Shown here: positions 28,036-60,269 of the stretch, piece by piece
Layout of the letters: every line of letters begins with the position of its first letter
Position numbering within the stretch: position 1 is the first letter of the stretch
Assembly: GCF_001955715.1 (NCBI RefSeq)
Contig: NZ_CP019239.1
Location: 3,906,001 to 3,970,000, forward strand
DNA from: Rhodoferax saidenbachensis
GTDB lineage: Bacteria; Pseudomonadota; Gammaproteobacteria; Burkholderiales; Burkholderiaceae_C
Direction of reading: 5' to 3'
DNA length: 64,000 bases
Program-made: the position numbers and the translations under genes
The notes under the pieces: model-generated
Told to the model about the DNA's origin: nothing
Seen by the model: the letters and a program-made list of their open reading frames with translations, nothing else
Database searches by the model: none

Positions 28036-28090
28036 GCTATGAATTCAATAGCTGATCACGCGCAATCCACGGGGGCTACAGGCCAAAAAC
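28036..28090 (+). repeat. Short interspersed element, copy 1 (contains a start codon)
   Basis: GCTAT, seven bases, ATAGCTG, then CGCGCA-like sequence, then GGGGGCTACAGGCC and an A-run. It is the first of six copies of a family described under findings. The ATG of the ABC permease lies inside its left arm, and it encodes residues 1 to about 17 of that protein. Confidence 0.75.
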
Positions 28091-28884
28091 CCTCTTCCAT
28101 CTGGCGCGCACCCCGACTTTCCATGCGCTTCTGGCCGGTGTTTCTGCGCAACCTGCTGGTCTGGCGCAAGCTGGCCATTCCCAGCCTGGTGGGCAATATC
28201 GCCGAGCCGCTGATGTGGCTGGTGGCCTTTGGTTACGGCATGGGCGCGCTGGTGGGCCAGGTGCAGGTGGATGGCACGGCCGTGCCCTACATCCTGTTTC
28301 TGGCCAGCGGCTCGATCTGCATGAGCGCCATGCAGGCGGCGTCGTTCGAGGCGCTGTACTCAGCCTTCTCGCGCATGCACGTGCAAAAGACCTGGGACGG
28401 CATCATGAACGCACCCGTGGGCCTGGACGACATCGTGCTGGCGGAGATGTTGTGGGCGGCTTTCAAGTCGCTGTTCACGGTGACCGCCATCCTGGGCGTG
28501 ATGTTGGCACTGCAGATCAGCCATTCGCCAAAGCTGCTGGTGGCCTGGCCCATCCTGCTGGGTGTGGGTATCACCTTCAGTTGCATGGCGCTGGTGTTCA
28601 ACGCGCTGGCCAAGGGCTACGACTTTTTCACCTACTACTTCACGCTGTTCCTCACGCCCATGATGTTTTTGAGCGGCGTGTTTTTCCCGCTGGAGCAACT
28701 GCCCCCGGTGGTGCGCGTGGTGGCCGACTGGCTGCCGCTGTCCAATGCCGTGGCACTGGTGCGCCCGCTGTTCATGGACCAGTGGCCCACGGATGTGCTG
28801 CGCCATGCGCTGGTGCTGGTGGTTTATACGGTGGTGTCGTTCTGGGTGGCGCTGGCCCTCACGCGCAAGCGCTTCCGGCTGTGA
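28039..28884 (+). CDS. ABC-2 type permease, NodJ family
   Basis: The 281-residue protein has six membrane segments, the first around NIAEPLMWLVAFGYGMGALV and the last VLVVYTVVSFWVALALT. It carries the NodJ/ABC-2 features YILFLASGSICMSAMQAASF and LTPMMFLSGVFFPLEQLP. With the upstream ATPase it forms an exporter. The first 17 or so residues (MNSIADHAQSTGATGQK) are encoded by a copy of the interspersed element, so the original protein probably began near the SMRFWPVF segment. A GAAGGAT Shine-Dalgarno at 28024-28030 serves the present start. Confidence 0.9.
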   Translation: MNSIADHAQSTGATGQKPSSIWRAPRLSMRFWPVFLRNLLVWRKLAIPSLVGNIAEPLMWLVAFGYGMGALVGQVQVDGTAVPYILFLASGSICMSAMQAASFEALYSAFSRMHVQKTWDGIMNAPVGLDDIVLAEMLWAAFKSLFTVTAILGVMLALQISHSPKLLVAWPILLGVGITFSCMALVFNALAKGYDFFTYYFTLFLTPMMFLSGVFFPLEQLPPVVRVVADWLPLSNAVALVRPLFMDQWPTDVLRHALVLVVYTVVSFWVALALTRKRFRL

Positions 28885-28896
28885 CGTTCCATTTTT

Positions 28897-28902
28897 TATA
28901 AT
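28897..28902 (+). promoter_or_regulatory. Possible -10 box (TATAAT)
   Basis: A perfect TATAAT lies in an AT-rich patch nine bases before the ATG at 28911. No good -35 hexamer stands at the right distance, so this may only be a weak or regulated promoter for the split-barrel gene pair. Confidence 0.3.
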
Positions 28903-28910
28903 TCCGCGGG

Positions 28911-29420
28911 ATGAGCACGCCATCGATCCTGCTGCCGCCGGAACTGATCGCCCTGATTGCGGGTGGCATTTCGACCATCGTCAGTTCTGCAGATGCAGCC
29001 CTGCGCCCCAGCATCATGCGTGCCGTGGGCAGCACCATCACCCCTGATGGCCGCACGGTGACCGTGTATCTGGCCCGTCGGCAGTCGCGCCAATTGCTGC
29101 AGGACCTCGCCGCGACCGGACGCATTGCCGTCGTGTTCAGCCAGCCCTACAGCCACCGCACCCTGCAGCTCAAGGCAGACAGCGTGCGGACCCGCCCGAT
29201 GGAAGACGCCGACCAGGCGACGCTTGCCCAATATTTGCAGGGCATGGAACAGGAAGTTACCCGCGTCGGGTTCAACCCCAGCTTCACACACGCCATGCTG
29301 GCTTATGCCCAGGCGGACGTCGTCTCCGTGAGTTTTGAACCCACCGAGGCGTTTGACCAGACCCCGGGACCACGCGCTGGTGAGCGTTTGGGGGCGATAC
29401 CCGAGGCTGACATCCCATGA
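28911..29420 (+). CDS. FMN-binding split-barrel protein (pyridoxamine 5'-phosphate oxidase-like)
   Basis: The 169-residue protein has an N-terminal helix (LLPPELIALIAGGISTIVSS) followed by a split-barrel core with TVTVYLARRQSRQLLQDLA and IAVVFSQPYSHRTLQLKA, typical of PNPOx-like flavin reductases or binding proteins. The exact reaction is unknown. The gene overlaps the following GAF-containing gene by four bases (ATGA), so the two products are made together and may form a redox or ligand-sensing pair. It starts 26 bp after the ABC permease gene and may also be read from that operon. Confidence 0.75.
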   Translation: MSTPSILLPPELIALIAGGISTIVSSADAALRPSIMRAVGSTITPDGRTVTVYLARRQSRQLLQDLAATGRIAVVFSQPYSHRTLQLKADSVRTRPMEDADQATLAQYLQGMEQEVTRVGFNPSFTHAMLAYAQADVVSVSFEPTEAFDQTPGPRAGERLGAIPEADIP

Positions 29421-30757
29421 GTGGTTTGACACTTGGCGCAGTGCGCGCCTCGCTCCAGGGAGCCATTCCTACCGTGATGGCAACCTGTTCCAGCGACGGG
29501 GTGCCCAATGTGGCCTATATCTCGCAGGCCTTTTATGTGGACGAGCGGCATCTGGCGCTCTCGTTCCAGTTTCTGAACAAGACGCGCCAGAACATTCTGG
29601 CCAACCCGCACGCCAGCTTGCTGGTGCTGCACCCTGTCACGGCGCAGTTCCACCGCATCAACATCCGTTATCTGCGCACGGAAACCCAAGGCCCGCTGTA
29701 TGAAAGCATGAAGGCCCAGCTGGCGGGCATTGCCTCACACACCGGCATGGCCAGTGTCTTTCACCTGCGCGGGTCTGACATTTACGAAGTGCAAAACATT
29801 GATGCCATGGACTGCGACACCCTGCCAGAACCGGCACCGCAGTTCAATATGCTGAGCGCCGTGCGGCGTTCCAGCGAACGGCTGGCGCGCTGCAGTTCAC
29901 TGGACGAACTGCTCAATGCCACGCTGATCTCGCTGACGGACTTCGTGGGCGTGCGCCACGCCATGGTGCTGATGCTGGACCCGGTGACACAACGCCTGTA
30001 CACCGTCGCCAGCTGTGGCTACGCCTGCTCGGGCATTGGCTCCGAGATTGACATGGGGGACGGCGTCATCGGTGTGGCCGCGCGCGAGCGCACGCCGGTC
30101 AGCATCATGCACATGACCAATGCCTACCAGTACAGCTCGGCCATACGCAGCAGCCTGCAAGCCAGCAGCCCCGGCCTGGCGCTGGAGGCCGACATTCCCT
30201 GGCCAGGTCTCAGCGCCCCGCACAGCCAGTTGGCCGTGCCCATCCAGTCGGCGGGCAGGTTGCTGGGAGTCTTGTTCGTCGAGAGCCAGAACGATATGGA
30301 ATTCGGTTTTGAAACCGAAGACGTGCTGGTGGCCGTGGCGGGGCATCTGGGCGCGGGCATTGATCTGATGCAGGACGATCCGGATGCGATCGATGTCTCG
30401 CCCTTGAGTGGAGCTCCATCGGTCTCTGGAGGGCAGCCGCTGCAGATACGCCACTTCAACGCCAACGGCAGCGTTTTCATCGACGGCGACTACCTGATCA
30501 AAGGTGTCGCCGGGGCCATTTTCTGGAAACTGGTGCGCGATTTCACCGCACACGGGCGCACAGAGTTCACCAACCGCGAATTGCGCCTGGACCCGGACCT
30601 GGGCCTGCCCGATGTCACCGACAACCTGGAAGCCCGGCTGGTGCTGCTGCAGCGCCGGTTAAACGAACATGCCACGCCCATCCGCATCGAGAAGACCGGG
30701 CGCGGGCGCTTCAGGCTGAATGTTCAGCGCCCGCTGGAGCTGCTCGAAGCCACCTGA
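29417..30757 (+). CDS. Split-barrel / GAF / winged-helix-like sensor protein
   Basis: The protein has 446 residues. Residues 1-130 form a PNPOx-like split barrel (GAIPTVMATCSSDGVPNVAY, SFQFLNKTRQNILANPHA). Residues about 155-320 form a GAF domain (SLDELLNATLISLTDFVGVR, DMGDGVIGVAARERTPVSI, SQLAVPIQSAGRLLGVLFVE). Residues about 340-440 (LIKGVAGAIFWKLVRDF, FTNRELRLDPDLGLPDV) look like a winged-helix effector domain of the kind used in signalling. This suggests a flavin- or ligand-responsive regulator whose partner is the split-barrel protein encoded just upstream. The specific signal is unknown. The gene ends six bases before a convergent membrane protein gene. Confidence 0.75.
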   Translation: MSGLTLGAVRASLQGAIPTVMATCSSDGVPNVAYISQAFYVDERHLALSFQFLNKTRQNILANPHASLLVLHPVTAQFHRINIRYLRTETQGPLYESMKAQLAGIASHTGMASVFHLRGSDIYEVQNIDAMDCDTLPEPAPQFNMLSAVRRSSERLARCSSLDELLNATLISLTDFVGVRHAMVLMLDPVTQRLYTVASCGYACSGIGSEIDMGDGVIGVAARERTPVSIMHMTNAYQYSSAIRSSLQASSPGLALEADIPWPGLSAPHSQLAVPIQSAGRLLGVLFVESQNDMEFGFETEDVLVAVAGHLGAGIDLMQDDPDAIDVSPLSGAPSVSGGQPLQIRHFNANGSVFIDGDYLIKGVAGAIFWKLVRDFTAHGRTEFTNRELRLDPDLGLPDVTDNLEARLVLLQRRLNEHATPIRIEKTGRGRFRLNVQRPLELLEAT

Positions 30758-30763
30758 TCCGAT

Positions 30764-31150
30764 TCACGCCCAGGCATCGCGGCTGGCCACTGCCATGAAA
30801 AACATCAGCACGGCGCCCAGCAACACGGCGATCGATGCAATGCCCAGGACAGGCTCCAGCCGATCCACGGGAACCAACCCGCCGTACAGAAGAAACAGGC
30901 CTACACACATACCCAGCACACCCACCTGGTGTGCGATCAGCTGCAGTTTTGCCAACAGCGGCATGGATGCATCCAGCCAGAGCTTGTGCATCACGCCATA
31001 GAGAAACGACGTCACAAATCCCAGCAGCAGCACATGCGCATGGGTCACATGCTGTGCGTGGTTTTGCGAAGCCGCCATGTAAATGCCCAAAACCATGCCG
31101 GCGATGGCGTAGGCCAGTGCCCAGAGCAGGTACTTTCTGTCAGTTTTCAT
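30764..31150 (-). CDS. Small four-helix membrane protein
   Basis: The 128-residue protein has four predicted membrane helices and a conserved histidine pattern, NHAQHVTHAHVLLLGF, in the first loop and second helix. The pattern resembles a miniature of the heme-copper oxidase or NnrS type, so heme or metal binding is possible but unproven. Related small proteins are often mislabelled as TonB-dependent receptors; this one is too short to be such a receptor. An AAGGAAT Shine-Dalgarno stands before the start, and the gene follows the hemerythrin-like gene by 34 bp, so a shared role in oxygen or nitric oxide biology is plausible. Confidence 0.75.
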   Translation of the reverse strand: MKTDRKYLLWALAYAIAGMVLGIYMAASQNHAQHVTHAHVLLLGFVTSFLYGVMHKLWLDASMPLLAKLQLIAHQVGVLGMCVGLFLLYGGLVPVDRLEPVLGIASIAVLLGAVLMFFMAVASRDAWA

Positions 31151-31184
31151 CGATATTCCTTGGTAAAAAAACGAATTTCTCGGT

Positions 31185-31925
31185 TCAAACCTGAACCAGA
31201 CCGGGTGCCGGCGCGATACCCAGGCCTCGGGTCAGCTTGGCCCACTCGGGCACAGTCAAATGGGGTTGAACAACCTCCAGCGCCGCGGCGAACGCGGTAG
31301 CGGGGGCATGCGCCTGCATGTCGGACAACATGGCCACCCGCTCGGCAGGGTTCATGTAGGGCACCATCCAGCGCAGGATGAACATCATGTCGGCCGGCAG
31401 AATGGAGGCCACCAGTTTGTTGTGGATTTCAACCAGCTCCGCATCGGTATACCGTGCCCACAATACGGCGTTGAGGACTGTTTCTTCCACATGCATGTGC
31501 TGAAAGTTCTCAGCCACGAATAGCGCCAGATCGCGGTACAGCGCCAGCACCGCGGGGGCCGCGCCCCGGGTGTCCGGCGAGGACCAGAGCGCGGCCACGG
31601 CACTTTTGATGTCGTCAATGTGCCGCTGGTGGTCCTGGTGCTCATGGTCGATTACTTCGCTGCCGCCAGGCGCACGGGCTTCCACCGCTGCGTGGACAAA
31701 GCGGTTTTCATGGGCAATGTGCAAGGCACAAAAGTCCAGCAGCTCCAGCACCCGGCCTGTGACAGTGGCCAAGTCTGCGGTGTCCGTTGGGTCCATGCGG
31801 CCGACCGCCACCAGCGTGTCGGCCATCAGCGCGCGCAGCGCCTTATGGATGCCGGTGTACATATCCACGCGCGCGGTGCGCTGGGCCACTGCGACTGCAT
31901 GGTGTTCCTGAGTATTGTTTTTCAT
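31185..31925 (-). CDS. Hemerythrin-like HHE-domain protein
   Basis: The 246-residue protein has an HHE cation-binding pattern: IHKALRALM near residue 30, HIAHENRFVHAAVEA, VIDHEHQDHQRHIDDI and NFQHMHVEETVLNAVLW. These His and Glu residues fit a di-iron hemerythrin-like site. Such proteins bind oxygen or nitric oxide or guard iron-sulfur clusters. The C-terminal third (MFILRWMVPYMNPAERVAML) is typical of the larger HHE proteins. I use the ATG at 31925 (MKNNTQEHH), since the upstream extension has no conserved residues. It is divergent from a binding-protein gene across a 202-bp AT-rich regulatory region. Confidence 0.8.
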   Translation of the reverse strand: MKNNTQEHHAVAVAQRTARVDMYTGIHKALRALMADTLVAVGRMDPTDTADLATVTGRVLELLDFCALHIAHENRFVHAAVEARAPGGSEVIDHEHQDHQRHIDDIKSAVAALWSSPDTRGAAPAVLALYRDLALFVAENFQHMHVEETVLNAVLWARYTDAELVEIHNKLVASILPADMMFILRWMVPYMNPAERVAMLSDMQAHAPATAFAAALEVVQPHLTVPEWAKLTRGLGIAPAPGLVQV

Positions 31926-32035
31926 GGTGAGACTTCTTTTTCGGGCAAATTGCGCCCTGTACAAGCGACGGCCAGAAGCGCCCCATGCGCCATTGACCGT
32001 GGAAAGAAGTCTAAAAATCCGGCCCGTTTTTCGTT

Positions 32036-32092
32036 GTTAAATATTGCTTAAGAGTTTCTTAAAAAATCCTTAAATAGACAGTTTGATATTCT
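32036..32092 (+). promoter_or_regulatory. Four direct half-sites at 11-bp spacing, PmrA/OmpR-family-like operator
   Basis: GTTAAA (32036), CTTAAG (32047), CTTAAA (32058) and CTTAAA (32069) repeat with exactly 11 bp between starts. CTTAA(G/T) half-sites separated by five bases are the known PmrA/BasR box, and 11-bp direct repeats are typical for OmpR/PhoB-family regulators. A TATTCT -10-like box follows at 32087-32092, which puts the last half-site at the -35 position of the gene starting at 32128. Confidence 0.55.
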
Positions 32093-32127
32093 TCCGAGCA
32101 TTCCCGGCCTCCTTGTTTGAAATTGCC

Positions 32128-32928
32128 ATGTCCCTCGCCCGCATCGCATCCGTCCTGTTGCTGTTCTGCACACAAGCGGTGCTCGCAGCGGAACCAGCAC
32201 CATTGCGCTGGTGCTATGAGGACATTGCCGCAAAACCCTGGACTCTGCCCAACGAAAACGGCCTAAACGCCCTGCTGCTCAAACGCGTGGAAAAAATGCT
32301 GGGTGAGCGTTTTGTCTATGTCGCACGCCCCTGGAAACGCTGCCTGGAGGAAATGCGCCGCGGCGATTTTGACGGCATTTTTGCCGCAGCAGACTCGGAG
32401 GAACGGCGCACCTTCGGAGTGTTCCCCACCCTGCCCAACGGCGAAGCCGACCCGACCCGGGCGCTGCATGAAGATGTATTCCAAGTCTTCCTGCGCAAGG
32501 ACGGTGCAGCCTCTTGGGACGGCAAACTGCTCCAGGTCCCCAGCAACGGCGTGCTGGTGCAGCGTGGTTATGTGATTGGCGGAGTGTTGCGCGAGCGCGG
32601 ATTCGACGTGCGCGAAGTGACCAATTCCGCAGCGGATGGGCTGCGCCAGCTCGCCGCCGGCATGTTTGACGTGGCTGTCCTCCAGGGGCTGGAGTCCGAC
32701 GTCTTGCTGAGATCACACACCACGTGGTCGGCAAAAGTCACCAAGGCCCCGATGCCTTACGCCACCCGGCCCATGTACCTGTTTGTAGGCACCGCCGTCT
32801 ATGAACGCGACCCCAAACGCATAGAAACGATCTGGGCTTCCATCGCCGCCATCCGCAAAACACCCGCTTACCGCACCCAGGAGACCAAAGCCCTGCGCCA
32901 GTTGACGCAACTGAAGGCGCACGACTAA
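32128..32928 (+). CDS. Periplasmic solute-binding-like protein (SBP family 3 fold)
   Basis: The 266-residue protein has a clear signal peptide ([20 protein letters not shown]). The mature part begins [19 protein letters not shown] and continues with [21 protein letters not shown], a pattern like polar amino acid-binding proteins that lack a cognate transporter. No ABC partner gene is nearby, so it may be a sensor or scavenging protein. The ATG at 32128 is preferred because it begins the signal peptide; an upstream TTG at 32083 falls in the promoter area. The four 11-bp half-sites lie directly upstream, so a two-component regulator probably controls it. Confidence 0.75.
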
Positions 32929-32938
32929 ACGCGTTGGC

Positions 32939-34534: not shown

Positions 34535-34622
34535 GGAAAGGTCTCCTCCTGAAGGGTGGCGAACCTTAGCCCAGGGACATGGGCATTGCCAAGCCCGGTT
34601 TACCCGGATGACGGGGTTTTCA

Positions 34623-34658: not shown

Positions 34659-34664
34659 TCAGCC

Positions 34665-35144: not shown

Positions 35145-35185
35145 CCCGCTTCAACCTGAAGCTTTTAACTCCCAAGGAAAACACC

Positions 35186-35602: not shown

Positions 35603-35625
35603 GCGTCCCGACTCTGTCGCCCAGG

Positions 35626-35662: not shown

Positions 35663-35674
35663 ATGGTGGTGTCT

Positions 35675-36799: not shown

Positions 36800-36820
36800 G
36801 GCCATGCTGAACAAACACCT

Positions 36821-39255: not shown

Positions 39256-40365
39256 ATGCCCCACGCTTTTGAAACACTGACCCCCGACCTGGTACTGGAC
39301 GCGCTGGAGGGCGTGGGCCTGCGCGGTGATGGACGGCTGACCGCACTGTCCTCCTACGAGAACCGGGTCTACCAGGTGCAGCTCGAAGACGGCACGGCGG
39401 TGGTCGCCAAGTTCTACCGGCCCGAGCGCTGGAGCGACGCGCAGATCCAGGAAGAACACGACTTTGCGGCCGAGCTGATGGCCGAGGACATTCCGGTCAT
39501 CGGGCCGCTGGTGCTACAAGGGCAACTCGCCGCCGGGCCGCCCCAAGGCGAGTTGGCCCCCTCGGGGGGCAGCGACCCGCGCAGCGGCGGAGCGTGGGGG
39601 CCACGCACTCTGCACCACTTTGGCGGCTTTGCTTTCAGCGTGAGCCCACGCCGTGGCGGGCGCCCGCCCGAGCTGGACGACGGCGAGGTGCTGGAGTGGA
39701 TTGGCCGCTTTCTCGCTCGCATCCACGCCGTGGGTGCCAAGCGCCCGTTTGTGCACCGCCCCGCGCTGGACGTGCAGACCTTTGCCATCGAACCCATGCA
39801 GTGGCTGCTGACCCACAACATGGTGCCGCTGGATGTGCAAAGTGCCTGGACCAAAGCCTGCCAGGACGCTATTGATTTAATAGCTGGTCGCGCAGACATG
39901 GCGGGGGCTACAGGCCAAAACAAGTCCAATGCCAGCGGTATACGCCAGTTGCGCCTGCATGGCGACTGCCACCCCGGCAACATCCTCTGGACGCCCACCG
40001 ACGCCGCGGCCGCCGCAGGCCCGGGACCGCACTTTGTCGACCTGGACGACGCACGCACCGGCCCCGCCGTGCAGGACCTGTGGATGCTGCTCAGCGGTGA
40101 CCGCCAGCAGCGCACCCGCCAATTGGGCATGCTGGTGGACGGCTACGAACAGTTCCGCGAATTTGACCGCACCGAACTGGCGTTGATTGAACCGCTGCGC
40201 ACGCTGCGCCTGATCCACTACAGCGCCTGGCTCGCACGGCGCTGGAGCGACCCGACCTTTCCGGCCAACTTCCCGTGGTTTGGCTCCAGCGACTACTGGC
40301 AGGGCCAGGTGCTGATGCTGGAAGAGCAGATGGAAGCGATGCAAGAAGACCCGCTGGTGGTCTGA
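39256..40365 (+). CDS. srkA: SrkA-like stress response kinase with two repeat-encoded insertions
   Basis: The 369-residue protein resembles SrkA/YihE (about 328 residues in E. coli), an APH-fold Ser/Thr kinase that protects cells during stress. Catalytic segments are LRLHGDCHPGNILW, FVDLDDARTGPAVQDLWMLL and SAWLARRWSDPTFPANFPWF. Two stretches have no counterpart as I recall the family. Residues around 90-116 (PPQGELAPSGGSDPRSGGAW) are encoded by a GC-rich repeat. Residues around 205-221 (AIDLIAGRADMAGATGQ) are encoded by the 50-bp interspersed element. Together they match the excess length. Both keep the frame and fall in loop regions before the catalytic loop. It is the third gene of a phosphoesterase, kinase-Usp, SrkA series. 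Confidence 0.88.
   Translation: MPHAFETLTPDLVLDALEGVGLRGDGRLTALSSYENRVYQVQLEDGTAVVAKFYRPERWSDAQIQEEHDFAAELMAEDIPVIGPLVLQGQLAAGPPQGELAPSGGSDPRSGGAWGPRTLHHFGGFAFSVSPRRGGRPPELDDGEVLEWIGRFLARIHAVGAKRPFVHRPALDVQTFAIEPMQWLLTHNMVPLDVQSAWTKACQDAIDLIAGRADMAGATGQNKSNASGIRQLRLHGDCHPGNILWTPTDAAAAAGPGPHFVDLDDARTGPAVQDLWMLLSGDRQQRTRQLGMLVDGYEQFREFDRTELALIEPLRTLRLIHYSAWLARRWSDPTFPANFPWFGSSDYWQGQVLMLEEQMEAMQEDPLVV
39522..39604 (+). repeat. GC-rich repeat, copy A, in frame inside the srkA-like gene
   Basis: It contains GGCCGCCCCAAGGCGAGTTG, then CCCCCTCGGGGGGCAGCGAC and GGAGCGTGGGGGCC. Related sequence in the opposite orientation is found at 60778-60928 and 63466-63570. Here it encodes about 27 residues with no stop codon. 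Confidence 0.75.
39868..39920 (+). repeat. Short interspersed element, copy 2, in frame inside the srkA-like gene
   Basis: GCTATTGATTTAATAGCTG at the left, CGCGCA, then GGGGGCTACAGGCC and AAAA at the right. Same strand as the gene; encodes AIDLIAGRADMAGATGQ. Confidence 0.8.
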
Positions 40366-40461
40366 GCGGCAAGACCAGCGTCTGCGCCAAAGCGCCGTGC
40401 GTGGACGCCACGTGCCGGGTGTCGCCCCGTACCGTATTCCATGGCGCAGACCATCCAAATT

Positions 40462-40516
40462 GCTACTGAATATATAGCTGATTGCGCAACCCCAGAAAGG
40501 GCTACAGGCCTTTTTT
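40462..40516 (+). repeat. Short interspersed element, copy 3 (contains a stop codon)
   Basis: GCTACTGAATATATAGCTG, TTGCGCA, then GGGCTACAGGCC and a T-run, between the srkA-like and PAP2 genes. The minus-strand PAP2 gene ends inside it; the element supplies its last Gly-Leu and the TAG. Confidence 0.75.
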
Positions 40517-41317
40517 ACTCATAAAACTGCGTTGCACAAAGCCCAGCAACGCAACCAGCACCACAACCGCCAGCAGATACTGCACAGGCTGGTTTTCGGC
40601 AAAATCGAGCGCGTCTGTCACGAGGGTGTAGCCCGCCGCAACCACCAGCAGCGCAACCGTACGCAGCGCCCAGCTCTGCGCCTGGTACCAGGCCGCGGGC
40701 ACCCGTTGCAACAACAGCTGCCCCAACAGCCCGCTGAGCAGACCCAGCGCGGCACCCACCATCACGTCACCGGGCCAGTGCGCCCCCACGGCAATGCGTG
40801 ACAGACCCGCACCGGCGGCCAACAGCAACAACCAAGCATGGCGCCACCGGCGTGCCACAGGCAGTGCAAAGTAGATGCCACTGGCCACGGCAAAAGCGGT
40901 GAGCGTGTGCCCCGAAGGCATGGACACGTTGTGCAGCAGCTCGCCAACGATGCGCATCTGCGCGTTGTCCACCTCGGCCGCAGGGCGCGGGCTCTCAATG
41001 AAGAACTTGCCGGTGCGCGCAAACACGATAGCAAACGGCGCAGCACACAACCAGGCCCACAACAGGCGCGGCGCCAGCACCAGCAGCGGTGCCGTCACGC
41101 CCAGAATGCCCCAGGCATTGCCCAGCAATGACAAACCGGTCCACACCGGCGCAGCAACCGGGGCACACCAGCGGTTGATCGCCAGGAACAGCCCGGGCTC
41201 GGTCCAGTGCAGCCACAGCGGCGCCGACACCCCAAAAATCACCAGCGGCAGCCACCAGACCCAACGGGGCACGGTGGGCGTTGCAGGGACAGCGGACACG
41301 GGTTGCGATGTAGACAT
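40502..41317 (-). CDS. PAP2-family membrane phosphatase
   Basis: The 271-residue protein has five to six membrane segments and the three-part PAP2 phosphatase signature: KFFIESPRPAA, NVSMPSGHTLTAFA and SRIAVGAHWPGDVMVG. Such enzymes remove phosphate from undecaprenyl diphosphate, phosphatidic acid or lipid A. The preceding gene, 13 bases upstream, encodes an ArnT-like GT39 transferase, so a role in lipid carrier recycling or lipid A trimming is plausible. The last residues (KKGL) and the stop are formed by a copy of the interspersed element, so the original C-terminus may have been different. Confidence 0.87.
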   Translation of the reverse strand: MSTSQPVSAVPATPTVPRWVWWLPLVIFGVSAPLWLHWTEPGLFLAINRWCAPVAAPVWTGLSLLGNAWGILGVTAPLLVLAPRLLWAWLCAAPFAIVFARTGKFFIESPRPAAEVDNAQMRIVGELLHNVSMPSGHTLTAFAVASGIYFALPVARRWRHAWLLLLAAGAGLSRIAVGAHWPGDVMVGAALGLLSGLLGQLLLQRVPAAWYQAQSWALRTVALLVVAAGYTLVTDALDFAENQPVQYLLAVVVLVALLGFVQRSFMSKKGL

Positions 41318-44705: not shown

Positions 44706-45674
44706 TCAGCGTGCCAAAGCAAGCACTGCCGCTTCCAGCGCATCCACAAACATCGCAGGCACATCAAAGCCGGTCTGGTCATGGATTTCCTGGAAACAGG
44801 TCGGGCTGGTGACATTGATCTCGGTGAGACTGTCGCCAATCACGTCCAGCCCCACGAGCAACAATCCGCGCGCGGCCAGGATAGGCCCCAGCGCCTCGGC
44901 AATACGCCGGTCATCCGCGCTCAGCGGCAGGGCCACGCCCTTGCCACCGGCGGCCAGGTTGCCACGCACCTCACCACCCTGCGGGATACGCGCCAGGCAG
45001 AACGGCACAGGTTTGCCCCCGATGACCAGCACACGTTTGTCACCTTCGCTGATGGCGGGCAGAAACTTCTGCACCATCAGGGTCTGGGCGCCGTCCTTGT
45101 TGAGCGTCTCGATGATGCCGCCCAGATTCAGGCCATCGTCCTTGACACGGAAGATGCCCATGCCGCCCATGCCATCCAGCGGTTTCAGGATGATGTCGCG
45201 GTGCTCTGCGTGGAAGGCACGCACAGCGTCCGGCACACGCGTAACCAGCGTAGGGCCGATGAACTGCGGGAACTCCAGAATCGCCAGTTTCTCGGGGTGG
45301 TCGCGCAGCGCACGGGGCTTGTTGAAGACCTTGGCGCCTTCGCGCTCGGCCTGCTCCAGCAGATGGGTGGCGTAGAAAAATTCACTGTCGAACGGCGGGT
45401 CCTTGCGCATGACCACGGCGCCAAAGTCCTTGACCTCCCACACCGCAGGCGCGGCCTCGGTAAACCAGACATCGGGCTGGCCCGTAAGCGTGAGGGCACG
45501 CACGCGCGCCTGCACGCTCCCACCGCGCTGCCACACCAGCTGGCGCGGCTCACACGCGAAGATGCGGTGGCCGCGGCGCTGGGCCTCGCGCATCATCGAG
45601 AACGTGGTGTCCTTGTAGATCTTGAACGACTCCAGCGGGTCGGCCACAAACAAAATGTCCAGGGGTGTTTTCAT
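44706..45674 (-). CDS. gshB: Glutathione synthetase
   Basis: The 322-residue protein matches bacterial GshB: DILFVADPLESFKIYKDTTF at the N-terminus, FFYATHLLEQAEREGAKVFN, the ATP-grasp segment DIILKPLDGMGGMGIFRV and LVGLDVIGDSLTEINVTSP at the metal site. It joins gamma-glutamylcysteine and glycine. The start codon overlaps the benE stop (ATGA), so it is coupled to a transporter gene; gshA lies further upstream on the same strand, separated by kup and benE. Confidence 0.95.
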   Translation of the reverse strand: MKTPLDILFVADPLESFKIYKDTTFSMMREAQRRGHRIFACEPRQLVWQRGGSVQARVRALTLTGQPDVWFTEAAPAVWEVKDFGAVVMRKDPPFDSEFFYATHLLEQAEREGAKVFNKPRALRDHPEKLAILEFPQFIGPTLVTRVPDAVRAFHAEHRDIILKPLDGMGGMGIFRVKDDGLNLGGIIETLNKDGAQTLMVQKFLPAISEGDKRVLVIGGKPVPFCLARIPQGGEVRGNLAAGGKGVALPLSADDRRIAEALGPILAARGLLLVGLDVIGDSLTEINVTSPTCFQEIHDQTGFDVPAMFVDALEAAVLALAR

Positions 45675-46888
45675 GCTTTGGATTTTCCGAAATGTTGTAC
45701 CAGGAGCGCCAGTGCGCCAGCGACCACGCCCCAGAAGGCCGAACCTACGCCCGCAATGACCACGCCACTGAGTGTGACCAGAAAAGTGATGAGCGCAGCT
45801 TCGCGGTTGGTGTCGTCCTTCAGTGCCGCCGTTAAAGCACCGCCAATGGTGCCCAGCAAAGCCAGCCCCGCAATCGCGGCCACCAGCTCTTTGGGGAATG
45901 CCGTCAGCACACCGGTGATGGCAGCGCCAAACAGGCCGATCACCAGGTAGATGGCGCCACACGATACGGCCGCGGTGTAGCGGCGGTCCGGGTTGGCGTG
46001 TGCTTCGGGCCCCATGCAGATCGCTGCAGTAATAGCGCTGAGGTTGATGGCGAATGCGCCAAACGGCGCCAGCACCAGCGTGGCCAGCCCGGTGAGCGTG
46101 ATGACCTTGGAGATGGGAATGCCCGCATCACCCCCTTGCGCACGGCGGTCGGCATAGCCCGCAGCCTGGATGGCCGCCACGCCCGGCAGGTTCTGCGAGG
46201 CCATGGTCACGACAAACAGCGGCAGCGACAGGCTGATGAAGGCTGCCACCGAAAACTGCGGGGCCACAAATACCGGCCATGTGATACCAAAAGCAATGTC
46301 CACCGGCTTGAAACCTGCGCCAACAGCTACGAAAACAATAGCAACCAGCAGGGTCAGCGGCACCGCGTAACGCGGCATGAAACGCTTGCCCAGCAAATAC
46401 GCCAGCACCATGGTGGCGACCAGCGGCAAGGCGGTTTGCGCAGCACCAAAACCGGACAGACCAAACCGCGCCAGCACGCCGGCCAGCAGCGCCGAGGCCA
46501 GCGCCAGCGGAATGCGGTTCATCACGCGCTCAAACCAGCCGGTGGCGCCCACCAGCGTAATCAACAGCGCGCACAGGATAAAAGCGCCCACGGCGTCGGC
46601 CATGTTGAAGCCACCGGCCAGACCGGCCGAGGCCAGCACCGCTGCGCCCGGTGTGCTCCAGGCCACCATCACGGGCTTCTTGAGCCACAGCGAGGGCACC
46701 AGGGTGCACAGCCCCATGCCAATGCTCAGCGCCCACATCCACGAGGCGATGATTTCAGGGCTGGCACCAAAGGCCTGTGCGGCCTGGAAAACGATGGCAA
46801 CGGAACTGGTGAAACCGACAAGCACGGCCACAAAACCGGCGGTCGCCGCCGAGAGGCTGAGGTCTTTGAAAAATTGCATGCGGGCCAT
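45671..46888 (-). CDS. benE: BenE-family benzoate/H+ symporter-like protein
   Basis: The 405-residue protein has about eleven to twelve membrane segments and the BenE pattern: AGFVAVLVGFTSSVAIVFQA near the N-terminus, WSTPGAAVLASAGL, ASQNLPGVAAIQAAGY and PFGAFAINLSAITAAICMG. Family members import benzoate, but many have no tested substrate. No benzoate degradation gene is in the window, so the substrate here is open. It lies 43 bp after kup and overlaps gshB by four bases. Confidence 0.88.
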   Translation of the reverse strand: MARMQFFKDLSLSAATAGFVAVLVGFTSSVAIVFQAAQAFGASPEIIASWMWALSIGMGLCTLVPSLWLKKPVMVAWSTPGAAVLASAGLAGGFNMADAVGAFILCALLITLVGATGWFERVMNRIPLALASALLAGVLARFGLSGFGAAQTALPLVATMVLAYLLGKRFMPRYAVPLTLLVAIVFVAVGAGFKPVDIAFGITWPVFVAPQFSVAAFISLSLPLFVVTMASQNLPGVAAIQAAGYADRRAQGGDAGIPISKVITLTGLATLVLAPFGAFAINLSAITAAICMGPEAHANPDRRYTAAVSCGAIYLVIGLFGAAITGVLTAFPKELVAAIAGLALLGTIGGALTAALKDDTNREAALITFLVTLSGVVIAGVGSAFWGVVAGALALLVQHFGKSKA

Positions 46889-50360: not shown

Positions 50361-51695
50361 TCAGACGCGCACCTCCCCGTCCCCCAGCACCACGTACTTC
50401 AGCGACGTCAGCCCCTCAATGCCCACGGGACCGCGGGCGTGGAACTTGTCGGTGCTGATGCCGATCTCCGCGCCCAAGCCAAACTCGAAACCATCGGCAA
50501 AACGCGTGCTGGTGTTGACCATCACGCTGGCTGAGTCCACCTCACGCAGGAATCGCTGCGCGTGCATGTGGTCGCGCGTGAGGATGGCGTCGGTGTGGTG
50601 GCTGCTGTACTGGTTGATGTGGGCAATGGCTTCGTCAATGCCCTCCACCACCTTGATGCTGATGATGGGCGCCAGGTACTCCTCGAACCAGTCGCTCTCT
50701 TGCGCCGGCACTAGCTTGGGCTCCAAAATTGCTCCTGGTTTGATAGCTGCTTGCGCACTACCCATGGGGGCTAGAGGCACTTTTTGCTTCAAAATGGCCA
50801 GCGCTTCGGGGTCGCAGCGCATCTCAACGCCTTTGGCGGCGTAGACCGCGCCGATCAACGGCAGGAACTCCGCCGCCGCACCGCGCGCGACCAGCAGGCC
50901 TTCGGCGGCGTTGCAGGGGCTGTATTTGTTGGTCTTGGCGTTGTCCGCCACCTTGACCGCCATGGCGATGTCGCAGGGGTCGTCCACATACACATGGCAG
51001 TTGCCGTCCAGGTGTTTGATGACCGGCACCTTGGCGTCGCGGCTGATGCGCTCGATCAGGCCCTTGCCACCGCGCGGGATGATCACATCCACATACTGCG
51101 GCATGGCAATGAGCTGCCCCACCACTTCGCGGTCGGTGGTCTGCACCAGCTGCACCGCGTCGGCGGGCAAGCCGCTTTCCACCAGCGCCTGCTGCACCAG
51201 CTTGGCCAGTGCCTTGTTGGAGTCAATCGCCTCGGAGCCGCCGCGCAGGATGCAGGCATTGCCGCTTTTGATCGACAGGCTGGCCGCCTCAATCGTCACA
51301 TTCGGGCGGCTCTCGAAAATCATGCCGAACACGCCAATCGGCACCCGCATCTGCCCCACGCGGATGCCGCTGGGCTGCTGCTTCATGCCAATGATTTCGC
51401 CAATCACATCCGCCATCGCCGCCAGTTGCTCGCAGCCTTGCGCACAGGTCTCCAGCACCTTGGGCGTCAATTTCAGCCGGTCCACCATGGGCGCGGACAG
51501 GCCATTGGCCATAGCCCGCTCGATGTCCTTGGCGTTGTCCACCTGCAGGGCGGCTGTGTTCTCGCGCAACAGCCGCGCCAGGGTGCGAAGCGCTACGTTT
51601 TTAGTAGCTGACTGCGCGCGCGCCATAAGGGCAGAAGCCACTTTTGCCTGTGAACCCAGGGCGTGGGTGTATTCGGTGATGTTGGTCGCATTCAT
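50361..51695 (-). CDS. proA: Gamma-glutamyl phosphate reductase with two element-derived segments
   Basis: The 444-residue protein is ProA (417 in E. coli). Typical features are [52 protein letters not shown] and [11 protein letters not shown], where the catalytic Cys stands; the C-terminus has [20 protein letters not shown]. It makes glutamate semialdehyde for proline. The segment [20 protein letters not shown] is encoded by a copy of the interspersed element and looks like an insertion of about 19 residues against E. coli ProA. Near the N-terminus, [17 protein letters not shown] is encoded by a second copy, yet there the length fits E. coli. The frame is intact and all active-site motifs remain. 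Confidence 0.94.
50731..50785 (+). repeat. Short interspersed element, copy 4, in frame inside proA
   Basis: GCTCCTGGTTTGATAGCTG, TTGCGCA, then GGGGGCTAGAGGCA and a T-run. It is antisense to proA and encodes the inserted [14 protein letters not shown] region in the minus direction. Confidence 0.8.
51592..51646 (+). repeat. Short interspersed element, copy 5 (divergent), near the 5' end of proA
   Basis: GCTAC and GTAGC form the left hairpin around seven bases, followed by CTGACTGCGCG, then GGGCAGAAGCCACTTTT. It aligns with copy 4 at most core positions but is more diverged. It is antisense to proA. Confidence 0.6.
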
Positions 51696-54232: not shown

Positions 54233-54281
54233 GGTGCGAGTTTACAAGGCGCTCATCATTGAAGATAGGACTACGACCCCC

Positions 54282-54409
54282 TTCGTTCGGGCTGAGCTTG
54301 TCGAAACCCTCAACAAGGCTTGGCTCGTCAACGCTGTGTTTCGACAAGCGCAACGCGAACGGATTGCATCAGAAGAGCACCGAGGCTTCGACAGGCTCAG
54401 CCCAAACGG
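54282..54409. repeat. REP-like repeat cluster between arginase and holA genes
   Basis: Three related units lie here: CGTTCGGGCTGAGCTTGTCG near 54285, a diverged TTTCGACAAGCGCAACGCGA near 54339, and CTTCGACAGGCTCAGCCCAA near 54386 in the opposite sense. They match the arms of the palindrome at 36821-36870. The surrounding 197-bp intergenic region has nothing else that I can recognise. Confidence 0.7.
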
Positions 54410-54429
54410 AGGTATGTGTCCGCGCCGCC

Positions 54430-55338: not shown

Positions 55339-56387
55339 GCGGCTTTGCGCAGCACAGGGCGTGCGGCGGTGGCACAACCAAACAGGTCCTTGGGGTCTTT
55401 CAGATCCGGCACCAGGTCAACCGTGCTACCGATGCCGAGCTTCTGCGCCAACTGGTGCACATAACGCAAGGCAGAGAGGTCTTCCAGCGCAAAACCAACC
55501 GAGTCAAACAGCGTGACTTGCTCTGCGTTGTCACGGCCCACTTGGGTACCCGCCAACACTTTCCACAAAGGATAGGTCTGGAAGTCCGCAGGCATTTGCT
55601 GCAGCTCGCCTTCCACGCGGGTCTGTGGCTCAAACTCCACGAACACCTTGGCACGGTCGAGGATGCTGGCCTGCAGTTCGGTCTTGCCGGGGCAGTCGCC
55701 GCCCACGGCGTTGAGGTGCATGCCGGGTTCGATCATGTCGGCGGTGAGGATGGTGGCGTTGGTCTTGTCGGCGGTGACCGTGGTCACGATGTCGGCGCTC
55801 TGTACGGCTTCGCGCGTGGAGGCGCAGCGCACGATTTTGAGCGCGCCGCTGTCGGTAAAGGGACGCAGGTTGGCGACCATCTTGTCGGTGGCTTGGCTGT
55901 CCACATCAAACACACGCAGCGTGGTGATGCCCAACTGGGTCATGAACGCAATGGCCTGGAACTCGCTTTGCGAGCCGTTGCCAATCAAGGCCATGGTCTT
56001 GCTGTTTGGGCGCGCCAGCGCCTTGGCCGCAATGGCCGATGTGGCGGCGGTGCGCAGTGCAGTGGTGATGGTCAACTCGCTGAGCAGTTCGGGGTAACCG
56101 GTGGCCACGTCGGCCAGCACACCAAAAGCCATCACGGTGGACAGGCCCTGCAGCGGGTTCTTGGGGTGGCCATTGACGTACTTGAACGCGTACAACGCGT
56201 CATCCGACACGGGCATCAGCTCGATCACGCCGTTGGTGCTGTGGTTGGCCGTGCGCGGAGATTTGTCAAAGTCTTCCCAGCGCAGAAAGTCTTCGCGAAG
56301 GGTATCGGCCATCTCGGCCATCATGCGGGCCGCGCCGTGTTGCAAAACCAGTTGCTGCATGTCCGCAACGTCGATGTAGCGTGTCAT
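55335..56387 (-). CDS. Ornithine cyclodeaminase
   Basis: The 350-residue protein belongs to the ornithine cyclodeaminase/mu-crystallin family: ELMPVSDDALYAFKYVNGHP, TALRTAATSAIAAKALARPN, NAD-binding MALIGNGSQSEFQAIAFM, and GMHLNAVGGDCPGKTEL. It converts ornithine to proline and ammonia with bound NAD. A CAGGAGA Shine-Dalgarno precedes the ATG. It is the first gene of a two-gene arginine-to-proline unit and follows an Lrp-type regulator gene after a 142-bp region with two palindromes. Confidence 0.93.
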   Translation of the reverse strand: MTRYIDVADMQQLVLQHGAARMMAEMADTLREDFLRWEDFDKSPRTANHSTNGVIELMPVSDDALYAFKYVNGHPKNPLQGLSTVMAFGVLADVATGYPELLSELTITTALRTAATSAIAAKALARPNSKTMALIGNGSQSEFQAIAFMTQLGITTLRVFDVDSQATDKMVANLRPFTDSGALKIVRCASTREAVQSADIVTTVTADKTNATILTADMIEPGMHLNAVGGDCPGKTELQASILDRAKVFVEFEPQTRVEGELQQMPADFQTYPLWKVLAGTQVGRDNAEQVTLFDSVGFALEDLSALRYVHQLAQKLGIGSTVDLVPDLKDPKDLFGCATAARPVLRKAA

Positions 56388-56464
56388 GACGCATCTCCTG
56401 AAGTATTCAGAAAATTGTAGGTTTGGGGGTACGACAGCAGCCGACGAAGCGGGTGCCGTAAAGG

Positions 56465-56510
56465 GCGCAAAACGCTGGCTTTGCGCGAGACAACTTCCGT
56501 TTCGGAAGTT
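56465..56510. promoter_or_regulatory. Two adjacent palindromes between the lrp-like and cyclodeaminase genes
   Basis: GCGCAAA and TTTGCGC (56465-56486) and, six bases on, AACTTCCG and CGGAAGTT around TTT (56492-56510) are perfect inverted repeats. They could be binding sites for the Lrp-type regulator controlling ocd and arginase, or hairpins ending the lrp transcript; there is no long T-run on the minus strand. Confidence 0.45.
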
Positions 56511-56529
56511 TTGTGCAAAAGGCCGCGGT

Positions 56530-57009
56530 TCAGGCCCGGTCGCGGACCATCAGCGGAAAGCCCGCGAATTCCTTGACCGTTTGCAGCTCGGTGCTGGTGA
56601 CCACCTTGTCGATGCCCAGGCCTACATCGTCAATCCAGGTGTTGGTGAGGTCGCGGTAGTGTGCCAGATCACGGCATGCCAAGCGCACCAGGTAGTCGTA
56701 GCGGCCGCTCACCAGGTAACAGGCAATCACCTCGGGACAGGCCACCATGGCCTGCTCAAAGCGTTGCACGGAGGCCTGGCGCTGGTCCTTGAGCGCGATC
56801 TCGGCGAACACCGAGACATGTTCGCCCAAAGCTGCGCGGTGCAGCATGGCGCGGTAGCCTTCGATCAGGCCATCTTCTTCGAGCCGGCGCACGCGGTTGA
56901 GCGTGGCGCGGGCCGACAAGTTGACCACCTCGGACAGCGCCTGCGCGCTCATGCGGCCATCGCGTTGCAGCAGCTCCAGCAGGGTTTGGTCCACACGGTC
57001 AAACTGCAC
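56530..57009 (-). CDS. Lrp/AsnC-family transcriptional regulator
   Basis: The 159-residue protein has an N-terminal helix-turn-helix (DQTLLELLQRDGRMSAQALS, LSARATLNRVRRLEEDGLI) and a C-terminal RAM ligand domain (FAEIALKDQRQASVQRFEQA, VSGRYDYLVRLACRDLAHYR). Such proteins sense amino acids and control their catabolism. Its place beside arginase and cyclodeaminase genes suggests arginine or ornithine as the signal. It starts with GTG four bases after lptE, so it may also be carried on the leuS-lptE transcript. The palindromes downstream of it are candidate sites. Confidence 0.9.
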   Translation of the reverse strand: MQFDRVDQTLLELLQRDGRMSAQALSEVVNLSARATLNRVRRLEEDGLIEGYRAMLHRAALGEHVSVFAEIALKDQRQASVQRFEQAMVACPEVIACYLVSGRYDYLVRLACRDLAHYRDLTNTWIDDVGLGIDKVVTSTELQTVKEFAGFPLMVRDRA

Positions 57010-57013
57010 GGGG

Positions 57014-57517
57014 CTACTGCTCCAGGCTTTTCACGGCAGCCAGGCGGCGCAACAACTGCTGCACGATGTCGGTCTGCATGTCGCGGTACAGCAAGCTTTC
57101 TTCGGCCTCTTTGGCCAGCACTGCAGATTCGTTGAAGCTGATGTCACGCTGTTGCACGATTTCAGTGGGGGCGATCAACTCGCGCCCCAGGGGGGTACGC
57201 AGGCGAAAGCGCACCCGTGTGCGCAACTGGAACTCGCGCACCTGGCCCGAGGCGTTCACACCCACCACGGTCTTCTCGCGCAGCTCCTGCAGGATGTCCA
57301 GAATCACATCGGGCGCGGGTTGCCCTGCTGCTGCAGGCGCCACAGGGCGCACCATGCCACCCAGGTAACGTGCCATATCGGTGGCCACACCACCACCGTT
57401 CTCCGGCGTGACAGCAATGGTCTGGAATACAAACGTTTGTTTGCTGCGCAACTGGAAGCCGCAGCCCGGCAGCAGGCTGGCAACCAGGACTAGTGTGAGC
57501 AGACTGCGGCGCTGCAT
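57014..57517 (-). CDS. lptE: LPS-assembly lipoprotein LptE
   Basis: The 167-residue protein has a lipoprotein signal with lipobox LLPGCGFQLR, followed by the LptE-type sequence FVFQTIAVTPENGGGVATDM and TRVRFRLRTPLGRELIAP. LptE plugs the LptD barrel in the outer membrane for lipopolysaccharide insertion. It follows leuS by one base, the usual arrangement, and precedes the Lrp-type regulator gene by four bases. Confidence 0.92.
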   Translation of the reverse strand: MQRRSLLTLVLVASLLPGCGFQLRSKQTFVFQTIAVTPENGGGVATDMARYLGGMVRPVAPAAAGQPAPDVILDILQELREKTVVGVNASGQVREFQLRTRVRFRLRTPLGRELIAPTEIVQQRDISFNESAVLAKEAEESLLYRDMQTDIVQQLLRRLAAVKSLEQ

Positions 57518-57518
57518 G

Positions 57519-60269
57519 TCAGATCACCACGTTGACCAGACGGCCGGGGACCACGACGACCTTCTTGGCCGGTGCACCTGCCGCAAATTGCACAAAGGTG
57601 TCGCAGGCCAGGGCCAGCTTCTCAATAGCCGCCTTGTCCGCGCCCGACGGCACCAGCACCGAGCCACGCAGCTTGCCGTTGATCTGCAGCACCAGTTCGA
57701 TCTCGTCCTGCTGCAAAGCGGAATCATCCACCTGTGGCCAGGGCGCGTCGAGAATATCGCCCAACGCGCCCGCATAGCCCAGCTCGGCCCAGAGGGCGTG
57801 CGCAAGGTGCGGCGTAGCCGGGTACAGGCAGCGCAACAGGATGCCGAAGCCTTCGATCACCGCAACCTGACCGTCTGCCGAGTCCAGCGCCTTGAAGTCT
57901 TCCAGCGCGTTGATCATCTTCATGGCGCCAGAGACCACGGTGTTGTACTGCATGCGCTGGTAGTCGTAATCCACCTGCTTGAGCACGGTGTGCATTTCCA
58001 GACGCAGGGCCTTGGCTTCCTTGCTGAATTCAACATCTTTCAGTCCTGTAGCCCCCGCAGTGCTTGCGCGAGCAGCTCCTGAATCCATAGCAGATAACTT
58101 GTAGCCGAAGTTCCACACGCGGCGCAGGAAACGGTAGCTACCTTCCACTGCGGCGTCGTTCCACTCCAGCGTGGCCTCGGGCGGTGCGGTGAACATGGTG
58201 TAAAGGCGCGCAGTGTCGGCGCCGTACTTGGCGATCAGCGCCTGCGGGTCGACACCGTTGTTCTTGGACTTGGACATGGTGCCCACGCCCTCGTAGTCAA
58301 TGGGTGTGCCCACGAGCAAATCGCCCACCGCATTGATGAGCTTGGCGCCAACGATCTTGCCGGCCGCGTCAAACACATGTTCCACGTCGTGCGGCCAAAA
58401 GTACTCCTTGCCACCCTTGTCGGTGCGGCGCGAGTAGATGTGGTTCAGCACCATGCCCTGCGTGAGCAATTTGGTGAAAGGTTCGTCCACCTTCACAAGC
58501 CCCAGGTCGCGCATGACCTTGGTCCAGAAACGTGCGTACAGCAAGTGCAGGATGGCGTGTTCGATACCGCCGATGTACTGGTCCATGCCACTGCCACCGG
58601 TGGCCAGGTTCTGATCGCGCATCCAGTAGTCGGTGCCACCCGCCACCATCGCATCGGTGTTGTGCGGGTCGCAGTAGCGCATGAAGTACCAGGACGAATC
58701 CACAAAGGTGTCCATGGTGTCGGTTTCGCGCCGTGCCGCCTTGCCGCAAATAGGGCAGACCACACCGGCGTGGAAACCTTCGTGTTTGTGCAGCGGGTTG
58801 CCGGAGCCATCGGGAATGCAATCCATCGGCAGCACTACCGGCAGGTCTTTTTCCGGCACCGGCACCGCGCCGTGTTCATCACAATGGATGATGGGAATCG
58901 GCGTGCCCCAGTAACGCTGGCGGCTCACGCCCCAGTCGCGCAGGCGCCAGGTGGTTTTCTTCTCGCCCAGCCCCAGGGCGGCCAATGCCTTGGCCACCGC
59001 GTTGACCGCTTCCTTGTACGACAGGCCGCTGAACACATCAGAGTTGACGGTCACACCGCGTTGCTTGTCGCCATACCAGTCCTGCCACTGCGCGTGGTCG
59101 TAGGTCAAGCCGTCTACATGCACCACATCGTGGATAGGCAGGTTGTATTTCTTGGCAAACGCGAAGTCGCGCTCGTCGTGTGCAGGCACGCCCATCACGG
59201 CGCCATCGCCGTAACCCATGAGCACATAGTTGCCAACCCAGACGTCGATGGCGCGGCCGGTCAGCGGATGTGTGACCTGCAGGCCCGTGGGCATGCCCAG
59301 TTTTTCCTTGACGGCCAGTTCGGCCTCGGTGGTACCACCGGCCTTGCACTCCTCAATGAAGGCGGCCAGCTTGGCATTGGACTGGGCAGCGTGCACCGCC
59401 AACGGATGCTCCGGCGCCACAGCACAGAAGGTCACGCCCATGATGGTGTCGGCACGTGTGGTGAACACGTACATGCGGCCCGACGCGCCTGCGGGTGCGT
59501 CTACCGATGACCCGATCAACGCACCGGTATCGTCCTTGATGTCGTGGGTAAACGCAAAACGCACGCCTTCGCTCTTGCCAATCCAGTTTTCCTGCATCAG
59601 CTTCACGCGCTCGGGCCAACCTGGCAGGCCGTCTTGCACCTGGCCCAACAGCTCTTGCGCGTAGTCGGTGATCTTCAGGTAGTAGCCGGGGATCTCGCGC
59701 TTCTCTACCGTGGCACCGGTGCGCCAGCCCTTGCCGTCGATGACCTGCTCGTTGGCCAGCACGGTCTGGTCCACCGGGTCCCAGTTGACGATCTGGGTCT
59801 TGCGGTAGGCAATGCCCTTTTCCAGCATTTTGAGGAACAGCCACTGGTTCCACTTGTAATACTGCGGGTCACACGTTGCCACTTCACGTGACCAGTCAAT
59901 CGCCAGGCCCATGGCCTGCATCTGGCTCTTCATGTAGGCGATGTTTTCGTAGGTCCACTTGGCAGGTGGCACGCCGTTTTTCAGTGCCGCATTTTCAGCC
60001 GGCAGGCCAAACGCATCCCAGCCCATGGGCATCAACACGTTGTAGCCGTTCATGCGCAGGTAACGCGTGAGCATGTCGTTGATCGTGTAGTTGCGCACAT
60101 GGCCCATGTGGAGTTTGCCGCTGGGGTAAGGCAGCATGGAGCAGGCGTAGAACTTCTTCTTGGACGCGTCTTCGATCACACGGTAGGCATCGCGGCCATT
60201 CCACAAAGGCTGCGCCCAATGCGCATGGGCGGCTTTTTCAACGTCGAGGTGCTGGTATTTGTCTTGCAT
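57519..60269 (-). CDS. leuS: Leucyl-tRNA synthetase with one element-derived segment
   Basis: The 916-residue protein has the class I motifs in [20 protein letters not shown] (HIGH-type) and [14 protein letters not shown] (KMSKS-type), the editing domain with [19 protein letters not shown], and the anticodon-binding helices after about residue 730. It charges tRNA-Leu. In the helical region, the segment [18 protein letters not shown] is encoded by a copy of the interspersed element; against E. coli LeuS, as I recall it, there are about nine extra residues there. The frame is intact. It lies in the conserved exbD, leuS, lptE order and is the longest gene of the block. Confidence 0.96.
58039..58091 (-). 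repeat. Short interspersed element, copy 6, in frame inside leuS
   Basis: On the minus strand: GCTATGGATTCAGGAGCTG, CTCGCGCA, then GCGGGGGCTACAGGAC. It has the same orientation as leuS and encodes [17 protein letters not shown]. Confidence 0.78.

Follow-up and report, generated by a model that had tools for sequence, protein, structure and literature searches.

A dispersed motif of about 69 bp in Rhodoferax saidenbachensis and other Comamonadaceae, possibly a DNA recognition signal read by a protein and partly formed in place within genes

A 64,000-nucleotide stretch of the Rhodoferax saidenbachensis chromosome (positions 3,906,001 to 3,970,000 of contig NZ_CP019239.1, hereafter the window) contains seven copies of an interspersed repeat, whose behaviour is closer to that of a dispersed recognition signal than to that of a jumping element. 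The best explanation, proposed tentatively and with somewhat less than even confidence, takes the repeat to be a long DNA recognition motif of about 69 bp, and not a base-paired or recently mobile element. That is to say, several hundred copies over the chromosome would be kept at the nucleotide level, a putative reader protein would recognise the motif, and selection or biased recombination (molecular drive) would maintain it, as for DNA uptake sequences. New copies would appear where the host tolerates them, namely in intergenic DNA, at variable loops of proteins, or in place, the last being a route by which a coding stretch already resembling the motif would change into it. Upkeep of a protein-read motif would account for the mix of fixed and free columns, for the sites formed in place, for the open frames, for the use of permissive loops, and for dialects and an even spread. 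The more specific proposal, namely a giant protein-read signal in dialects that spread through the Comamonadaceae by molecular drive and rewrote codons of mutL, benE and proA in place, with an uptake-like or chromosome-marking role, is possible and still rather doubtful. If a protein does read the motif, hundreds of sites in many environmental betaproteobacteria would be marked by a novel system. No description of the motif was found in the open-licence papers searched.

The unit was defined from 30 genome copies (the window copy at 39864 among them) and five further window copies, all set in one orientation, and it runs from 17 bases before TAGCTG to 51 past the first base of that word, i.e., about 69 bp, which replaces the 50–55 bp given by an earlier reading of the window made from the letters alone (the sequence-only reading). 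Read from the left, it has an A/T-rich beginning, then GCTAY and RTAGC separated by seven free bases, TGCTTGCGCA and a loosely conserved spacer; the right part comprises GGGCTANAGGC (also given as GGGGGCTANAGGCC), nATTT and a tail that includes AAAT, and both ends carry A/T tracts. Twenty-one columns are strongly conserved, and fixed and free columns stand side by side; the training copies were found by a pattern, so the fixed columns inside this pattern are partly ascertained, which does not apply to columns 5–8. Two matrices, both in bits, were used in succession, the first being built from the 30 genome copies. All six copies that the sequence-only reading had located were found again, with first-matrix scores, in position order, of 48.0, 63.8, 69.5, 74.8, 28.5 and 58.4 bits, against a top score of -4.9 in 30 shuffled windows; a seventh, at 46278–46346 on the minus strand, had been overlooked.

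The genome of R. saidenbachensis itself (the own genome) is a single contig of 4.26 Mb. A 36-base pattern allowing up to three mismatches gave at least 224 matches in it and 0 in the reversed control; a fitting minus-strand copy near 1809300 is absent from the matches listed, and orientation was therefore counted only in sampled regions. The sample, 464 kb in all, consisted of the window plus twenty 20-kb stretches, with region L179 chosen for its known density, and the 69-column matrix found 65 copies of at least 30 bits in it, with none above 0 in the reversed sequence. By pattern and by matrix, the copies far exceed what reversed sequence yields, and the question of chance frequency that had been left to a genome search is answered in favour of a real family. 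Extrapolation from these 464 kb, which include the region picked as dense, gives a genome total of approximately 600 copies.

Of the 65 sampled copies, 33 fall between genes, where 15% of random positions fall, 21 are contained in genes, against 77% of random positions, and the other 11 overlap either the end of a gene or a 5′ extension that is uncertain; the genes were called by our own codon-usage script, which trims starts. Copies are thus depleted in genes, and the counts do not support the description of the repeat as an element that lives inside coding sequence. What holds is that the family occurs in both orientations and is tolerated in open frames within genes: all eight same-strand copies are in one phase, and 12 of the 13 opposite-strand copies are in another. 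The motif also introduces codons such as ATA and TTA, which make up 4% of Ile and 0.9% of Leu codons, respectively, in the sampled own genes. Host genes include mutL, miaA, leuS, proA, hemD, the gene of the NAD-dependent DNA ligase and a fused aroA-cmk, the last being a 668-aa frame (L167:16633–18639, minus strand) that matches EPSP synthase and cytidylate kinase and carries the motif in its aroA part. Between genes (2 of the 44 copies considered lack two flanking genes and were left out), convergent gaps hold 12 of 42 copies vs. 26 of 183 gaps and divergent gaps 4 of 42 copies vs. 42 of 183 gaps, and in tandem gaps 11 copies are oriented with transcription and 15 against it. Over 19 regions, the number of copies per 20 kb has a mean of 2.84 and a variance of 2.14, i.e., shows no overdispersion. 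There is a weak excess of the motif strand on the lagging-strand side, 43:22 (p = 0.013), or 39:22 (p = 0.04) without L179, while genes are divided 183:183.

The left part of the unit had been described as a hairpin. In arm columns 9 and 17, pyrimidine and purine occur in all four combinations, 87.9% of cells are paired in 66 copies vs. 89.1% after shuffling (485 of 500 shuffles being as high), and RNAalifold returned no consensus structure (-0.25 kcal/mol). A maintained hairpin is ruled out by the absent covariation together with the absent consensus fold; only an inverted repeat is left, whose arms vary independently and which fits a protein-read dyad better than a stem. The same results bear on an RNA-level element, e.g., a terminator or processing signal, which would agree with the preference for convergent gaps and with a G/C arm that precedes an A/T tract; yet tandem gaps show no preferred orientation, both orientations occur inside genes, the window contains no Rfam match at gathering scores, and only 51 of the 85 own copies and 24 of the 103 other copies are compatible with the two small stems on the right-hand side. 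This explanation is considered very improbable.

Interval length bears on formation in place versus insertion. At nine in-gene sites, interval lengths were compared in loci with and without the motif; the counts are of loci, and some genomes enter twice (e.g., L219/L237 and L223/L235 at mutL, L187/L197 at the M20 peptidase gene). At benE, the loci with the motif (11) and those without it (9) both have an interval of 81 nt, and the same length holds at mutL (8 and 11 loci, respectively) and at the proA N-terminus (11 and 3), apart from single readings of 80 and 87 nt. The motif stretch aligns without gaps to PDB 4ghk in the ProA N-terminus and to PDB 7p8v in MutL, and the benE residues LVAIVFVAAR are identical in G199 (L113, with motif) and Variovorax (L089, motif-free here), with different codons. 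The motif-free orthologues having equal length, the three copies were not inserted and formed in place. At these three of the nine sites, motif-free relatives thus carry the same protein segment, contrary to the inserted protein-coding palindrome that had been proposed, which keeps its footing at some other sites (proA mid-gene, M20 peptidase, miaA), where motif-free orthologues are shorter. A repeat inside a gene, in other words, need not be an insertion, since a long motif can form at unchanged length, partly via synonymous change; it is suggested that families of 'protein-coding palindromes' be checked for orthologue length before they are called mobile.

At the remaining sites the interval varies. 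In the middle of proA it is 69–93 nt with the motif and 27 nt in 33 of 49 loci without it; this segment is absent from most relatives and falls in gaps of the alignment to PDB 4ghk. The interval grows from 33–42 nt to 66–81 nt with the motif in the M20 peptidase gene, from 66–69 nt to 78–81 nt in a methyltransferase gene, from 54–78 nt to 81 nt in miaA, and from 63 nt (one locus only) to 81 nt (nine loci) in an APH-family kinase gene. The leuS site is mixed, with 24 of 26 motif loci at 81 nt and motif-free loci at 42–93 nt (17 of 61 at 81), and its motif, common to several genera, looks old. In-gene gains at the non-neutral sites are smaller than the full 69-bp unit. Between genes, the own genome is longer by 57 to 82 nt at a first site than G167, G181, G203 and the motif-rich G175, all without this copy; at a second site it is longer by 66 nt than G181 and by 83 nt than G167, and at a third by only 8 to 28 nt than G167, G181 and G203.

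The main rival is old mobile palindromic DNA, similar to repetitive extragenic palindromic (REP) sequences or Rickettsia palindromic elements, whose ancient insertions would have survived in genes only in open frames and would have decayed since. It is a serious candidate, held to be doubtful on balance. Insertion-like gains at two of the three intergenic sites, in the middle of proA and in the M20 peptidase gene agree with it, as do the enrichment between genes and beside gene ends and the frames, which match what is expected of survivors; REPs have also been described within genes, some of them for DNA repair or tRNA-related, according to excerpts of one study (PMC3733652). The three length-neutral sites, by contrast, are incompatible with insertion, and decay from one master should affect all columns alike, whereas the columns differ. 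Nor does the copying history speak for it: among the 85 own copies there are no near-identical pairs or subfamilies, and the closest pair reaches 0.78 at 27 variable columns, with an average of 0.70 and a maximum of 0.78 in shuffles. The two members of this pair, L168:4182 and L168:8119, are separated by 4 kb, one of them lying between genes and the other inside a gene of the Asp/Glu racemase family; they are possibly a local duplication. Flanking direct repeats of at least 6 bp accompany 9 of 65 copies vs. 12% of random spans, i.e., without excess, and the target duplication that the sequence-only reading had proposed to look for is not borne out. Between G156 and G208, which are 93–95% identical, the copies in common are 17 of the 17 mappable in G156 and 15 of the 16 mappable in G208 (8 of 25 and 2 of 18, respectively, are unmappable), and no clean gain or loss was found among the mappable copies. 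In place of one G208 copy (L257:3782), the G156 counterpart has about 800 nt that seem to be PEP-CTERM-like coding sequence.

Another route to both kinds of site is templated replacement, modelled on short-patch illegitimate recombination, in which single-stranded motif DNA would anneal at partly similar replicating sites and overwrite or lengthen them. It accounts for in-place and lengthened sites together and would suit the motif strand's excess on the lagging side. However, all copies are free at the same columns, whereas mosaics derived from the host should vary by site; moreover, the source of single strands is hypothetical and the strand bias is weak, and the route is regarded as quite improbable.

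Returning to a kept recognition motif, constraint would be expected in the nucleotides themselves. At eight of the nine sites, synonymous codons show greater identity within the motif than in its flanks (benE, 0.80 vs. 0.51), the exception being the proA N-terminus (0.63 in the motif vs. 0.65 in the flanks); among about 136 flank windows per site, 0–2 reach the motif's synonymous identity at four sites and 15–62 at the other five. Amino acid identity, in turn, is lower in the motif than in the flanks at seven of nine sites. In genome pairs, from which sites with a partner score below 20 or unmapped were left out (sites kept of 10: G199 10, G183 10, G150 9, G175 9, G125 8, G164 7, G197 6), the conserved columns are slower than the flanks in five of seven comparisons, namely with G199 (17/210 differences vs. 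296/1572), G183, G164, G150 and G175. Judging from these alignments, the conserved columns and synonymous codons are constrained in several lineages and relaxed in others.

Several points weigh against such a motif. The conserved columns are not slower than the flanks in the comparisons with G125 (33/168 vs. 254/1277) and G197, and between G156 and G208 they change as much as the flanks (23/357 and 84/1359), although less than the variable columns (52/442). The spread of similarity among copies is 0.106 vs. at most 0.097 in 200 shuffles, and this slightly wide spread may leave room for some shared ancestry among copies. Two of the three intergenic sites look like insertions when lengths are compared. 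ComEC does not track the motif, and motif-rich G175 has no ComEC match. A recognition site this long is, to our knowledge, unusual, and the reader protein is only putative.

Of 150 genomes of the family searched with the 36-base pattern, 44 contain matches, and variants differ from genome to genome; the presence of similar sequences in other Comamonadaceae, which the sequence-only reading had supposed, is thereby borne out. A sequence-only profile run on 37 chosen genomes scored at most 137 candidates per genome, and its figures therefore speak of presence and not of number: 20 genomes have at least 90 matches, 3 have 1 to 4, and 14 have none. Occurrence by genome is nearly all-or-none. In 63 motif-free named loci (1.15 Mb) the best score was 18.0. 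A search with one strong copy gave a single match among 72,556 plasmid records, in one of Rhodoferax antarcticus, and none among 50,697 phage records. Acquired-looking DNA gives a mixed picture. DNA of low G+C content (0.53–0.56) without any copy is found in G208 (L258–L260, 60 kb) and in L178 of the own genome; L180 (G+C 0.567) has six copies, and aligned and unaligned DNA of G156 have equal motif density. A ComEC match is present in 36 of the 37 genomes, whatever their motif count (split over three frames in G003), and ComEC was set aside as an uptake marker, being uninformative when it matches with or without the motif.

The phyletic pattern also bears on the idea that the repeat is a GTAG-type REP moved by the own genome's single Y1 transposase of the REP-associated tyrosine transposase (RAYT) type. 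The own genome does have one Y1_Tnp gene with a motif copy at its 3′ end (L031:1105–1173 in the own genome, G000, weak), as does G199 (L142:1111–1179, moderate), and GTAG is seen on the reverse strand of some copies. Yet Y1_Tnp is present in all 12 motif-poor genomes of the genus (0–4 matches) and in 12 of the 13 motif-rich ones, the exception being G196, with at least 90 matches and no Y1_Tnp; GTAG is limited to 33 of the 85 own copies and 19 of the 103 others, and the other 28 Y1 loci scanned have no motif copy at the gene's 3′ end. A RAYT partner is disfavoured by the phyletic pattern and by the GTAG tag not being fixed, and this idea is thought extremely improbable.

In comparison with known systems, the nearest behaviour is, by analogy, that of DNA uptake sequences. 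Similar to the DNA uptake sequences (DUS) of Neisseriaceae and the uptake signal sequences (USS) of Pasteurellaceae, the motif has many copies on both strands, enriched between genes and tolerated in permissive parts of conserved genes, with upkeep at the nucleotide level and lineage dialects. The cores of DUS and USS are about 9–12 bp. Unlike them, the motif is about 69 bp with 21 strongly conserved columns and has fewer copies per kb, the presence of ComEC does not follow it, and its role in uptake is hypothetical; it is several times longer than any uptake sequence known to us. That the motif serves DNA uptake is a first guess, and an unlikely one. According to excerpts of Treangen et al. 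(PMC2397512), DUS occupy permissive regions of the core genome, are argued to originate in many cases by recombination and are reported to be rare in acquired DNA, and excerpts of Bakkali (PMC1939737) propose a gradual molecular drive model for uptake sequences. The motif resembles GTAG REPs and REPINs with RAYTs in high copy number, nearness to gene ends, convergent gaps and presence in some genes, and differs from them in its unfixed GTAG tag, its arms without covariation and the absent association with Y1_Tnp. Like Rickettsia palindromic elements, which occur as repeat units in frame in unrelated protein genes (PMC10969869, in excerpt), it is read within proteins; unlike them, it does not maintain pairing and three of its in-gene copies are not insertions, and it is shorter than RPE-1, for which the same excerpt gives about 150 bp. 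The genome paper of Rhodoferax ferrireducens (PMC2755013), in the portion available, mentions only a CRISPR array in the context of repeats.

In the window, four of the six copies first seen, all of which had been said to overlap coding DNA, lie wholly inside genes. The copy at 28032–28100 (plus strand, 58.8 bits, second matrix) is at the 5′ end of an ABC-2 permease gene (Pfam ABC2_membrane), and its overlap depends on the start codon: the longest open reading frame (28039–28884) starts within the copy, which could provide a candidate N-terminus (MNSIADHAQ...) of the permease. The copy at 40458–40526 (plus, 70.2 bits), at the 3′ end of a PAP2-family gene (40502–41317, minus), is mostly intergenic, and the last codons and the stop of that gene come from the motif. 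The copy at 39864–39932 (plus, 68.0 bits) is inside the APH-family kinase gene (39256–40365, plus), on the same strand and in frame. The overlooked copy at 46278–46346 lies inside the BenE-family transporter gene (45671–46888, minus), where it formed in place; it scores 10.6 bits with the first matrix and 31.0 with the second, and its orthologues score up to 66.9. The proA gene (50361–51695, minus) carries two copies on the opposite strand, one mid-gene at 50727–50795 (plus, 73.1 bits, second matrix) and one, length-neutral, in the N-terminal region at 51588–51656 (plus, 36.5 bits, second matrix), which is the weakest of the six, above chance and yet not an insertion. The copy at 58027–58095 (minus, 67.8 bits, second matrix) is inside leuS (57519–60269, minus), on the same strand and in frame.

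Other repeats were seen in the same host genes. In leuS of L033, L043 and L058, a different in-frame repeat insert with CCCCCCGAGGGGG lies near residue 790 of the window protein, and near residue 385 there are variable in-frame inserts in L047, L055, L056, L071, L075 and others, including L077, L084, L096 and L098, several with a stretch like SYAS.KSSPGA. Within mutL, L174:3921–3980 is a repeat of a second type, of which G114 and G005 contain numerous other matches.

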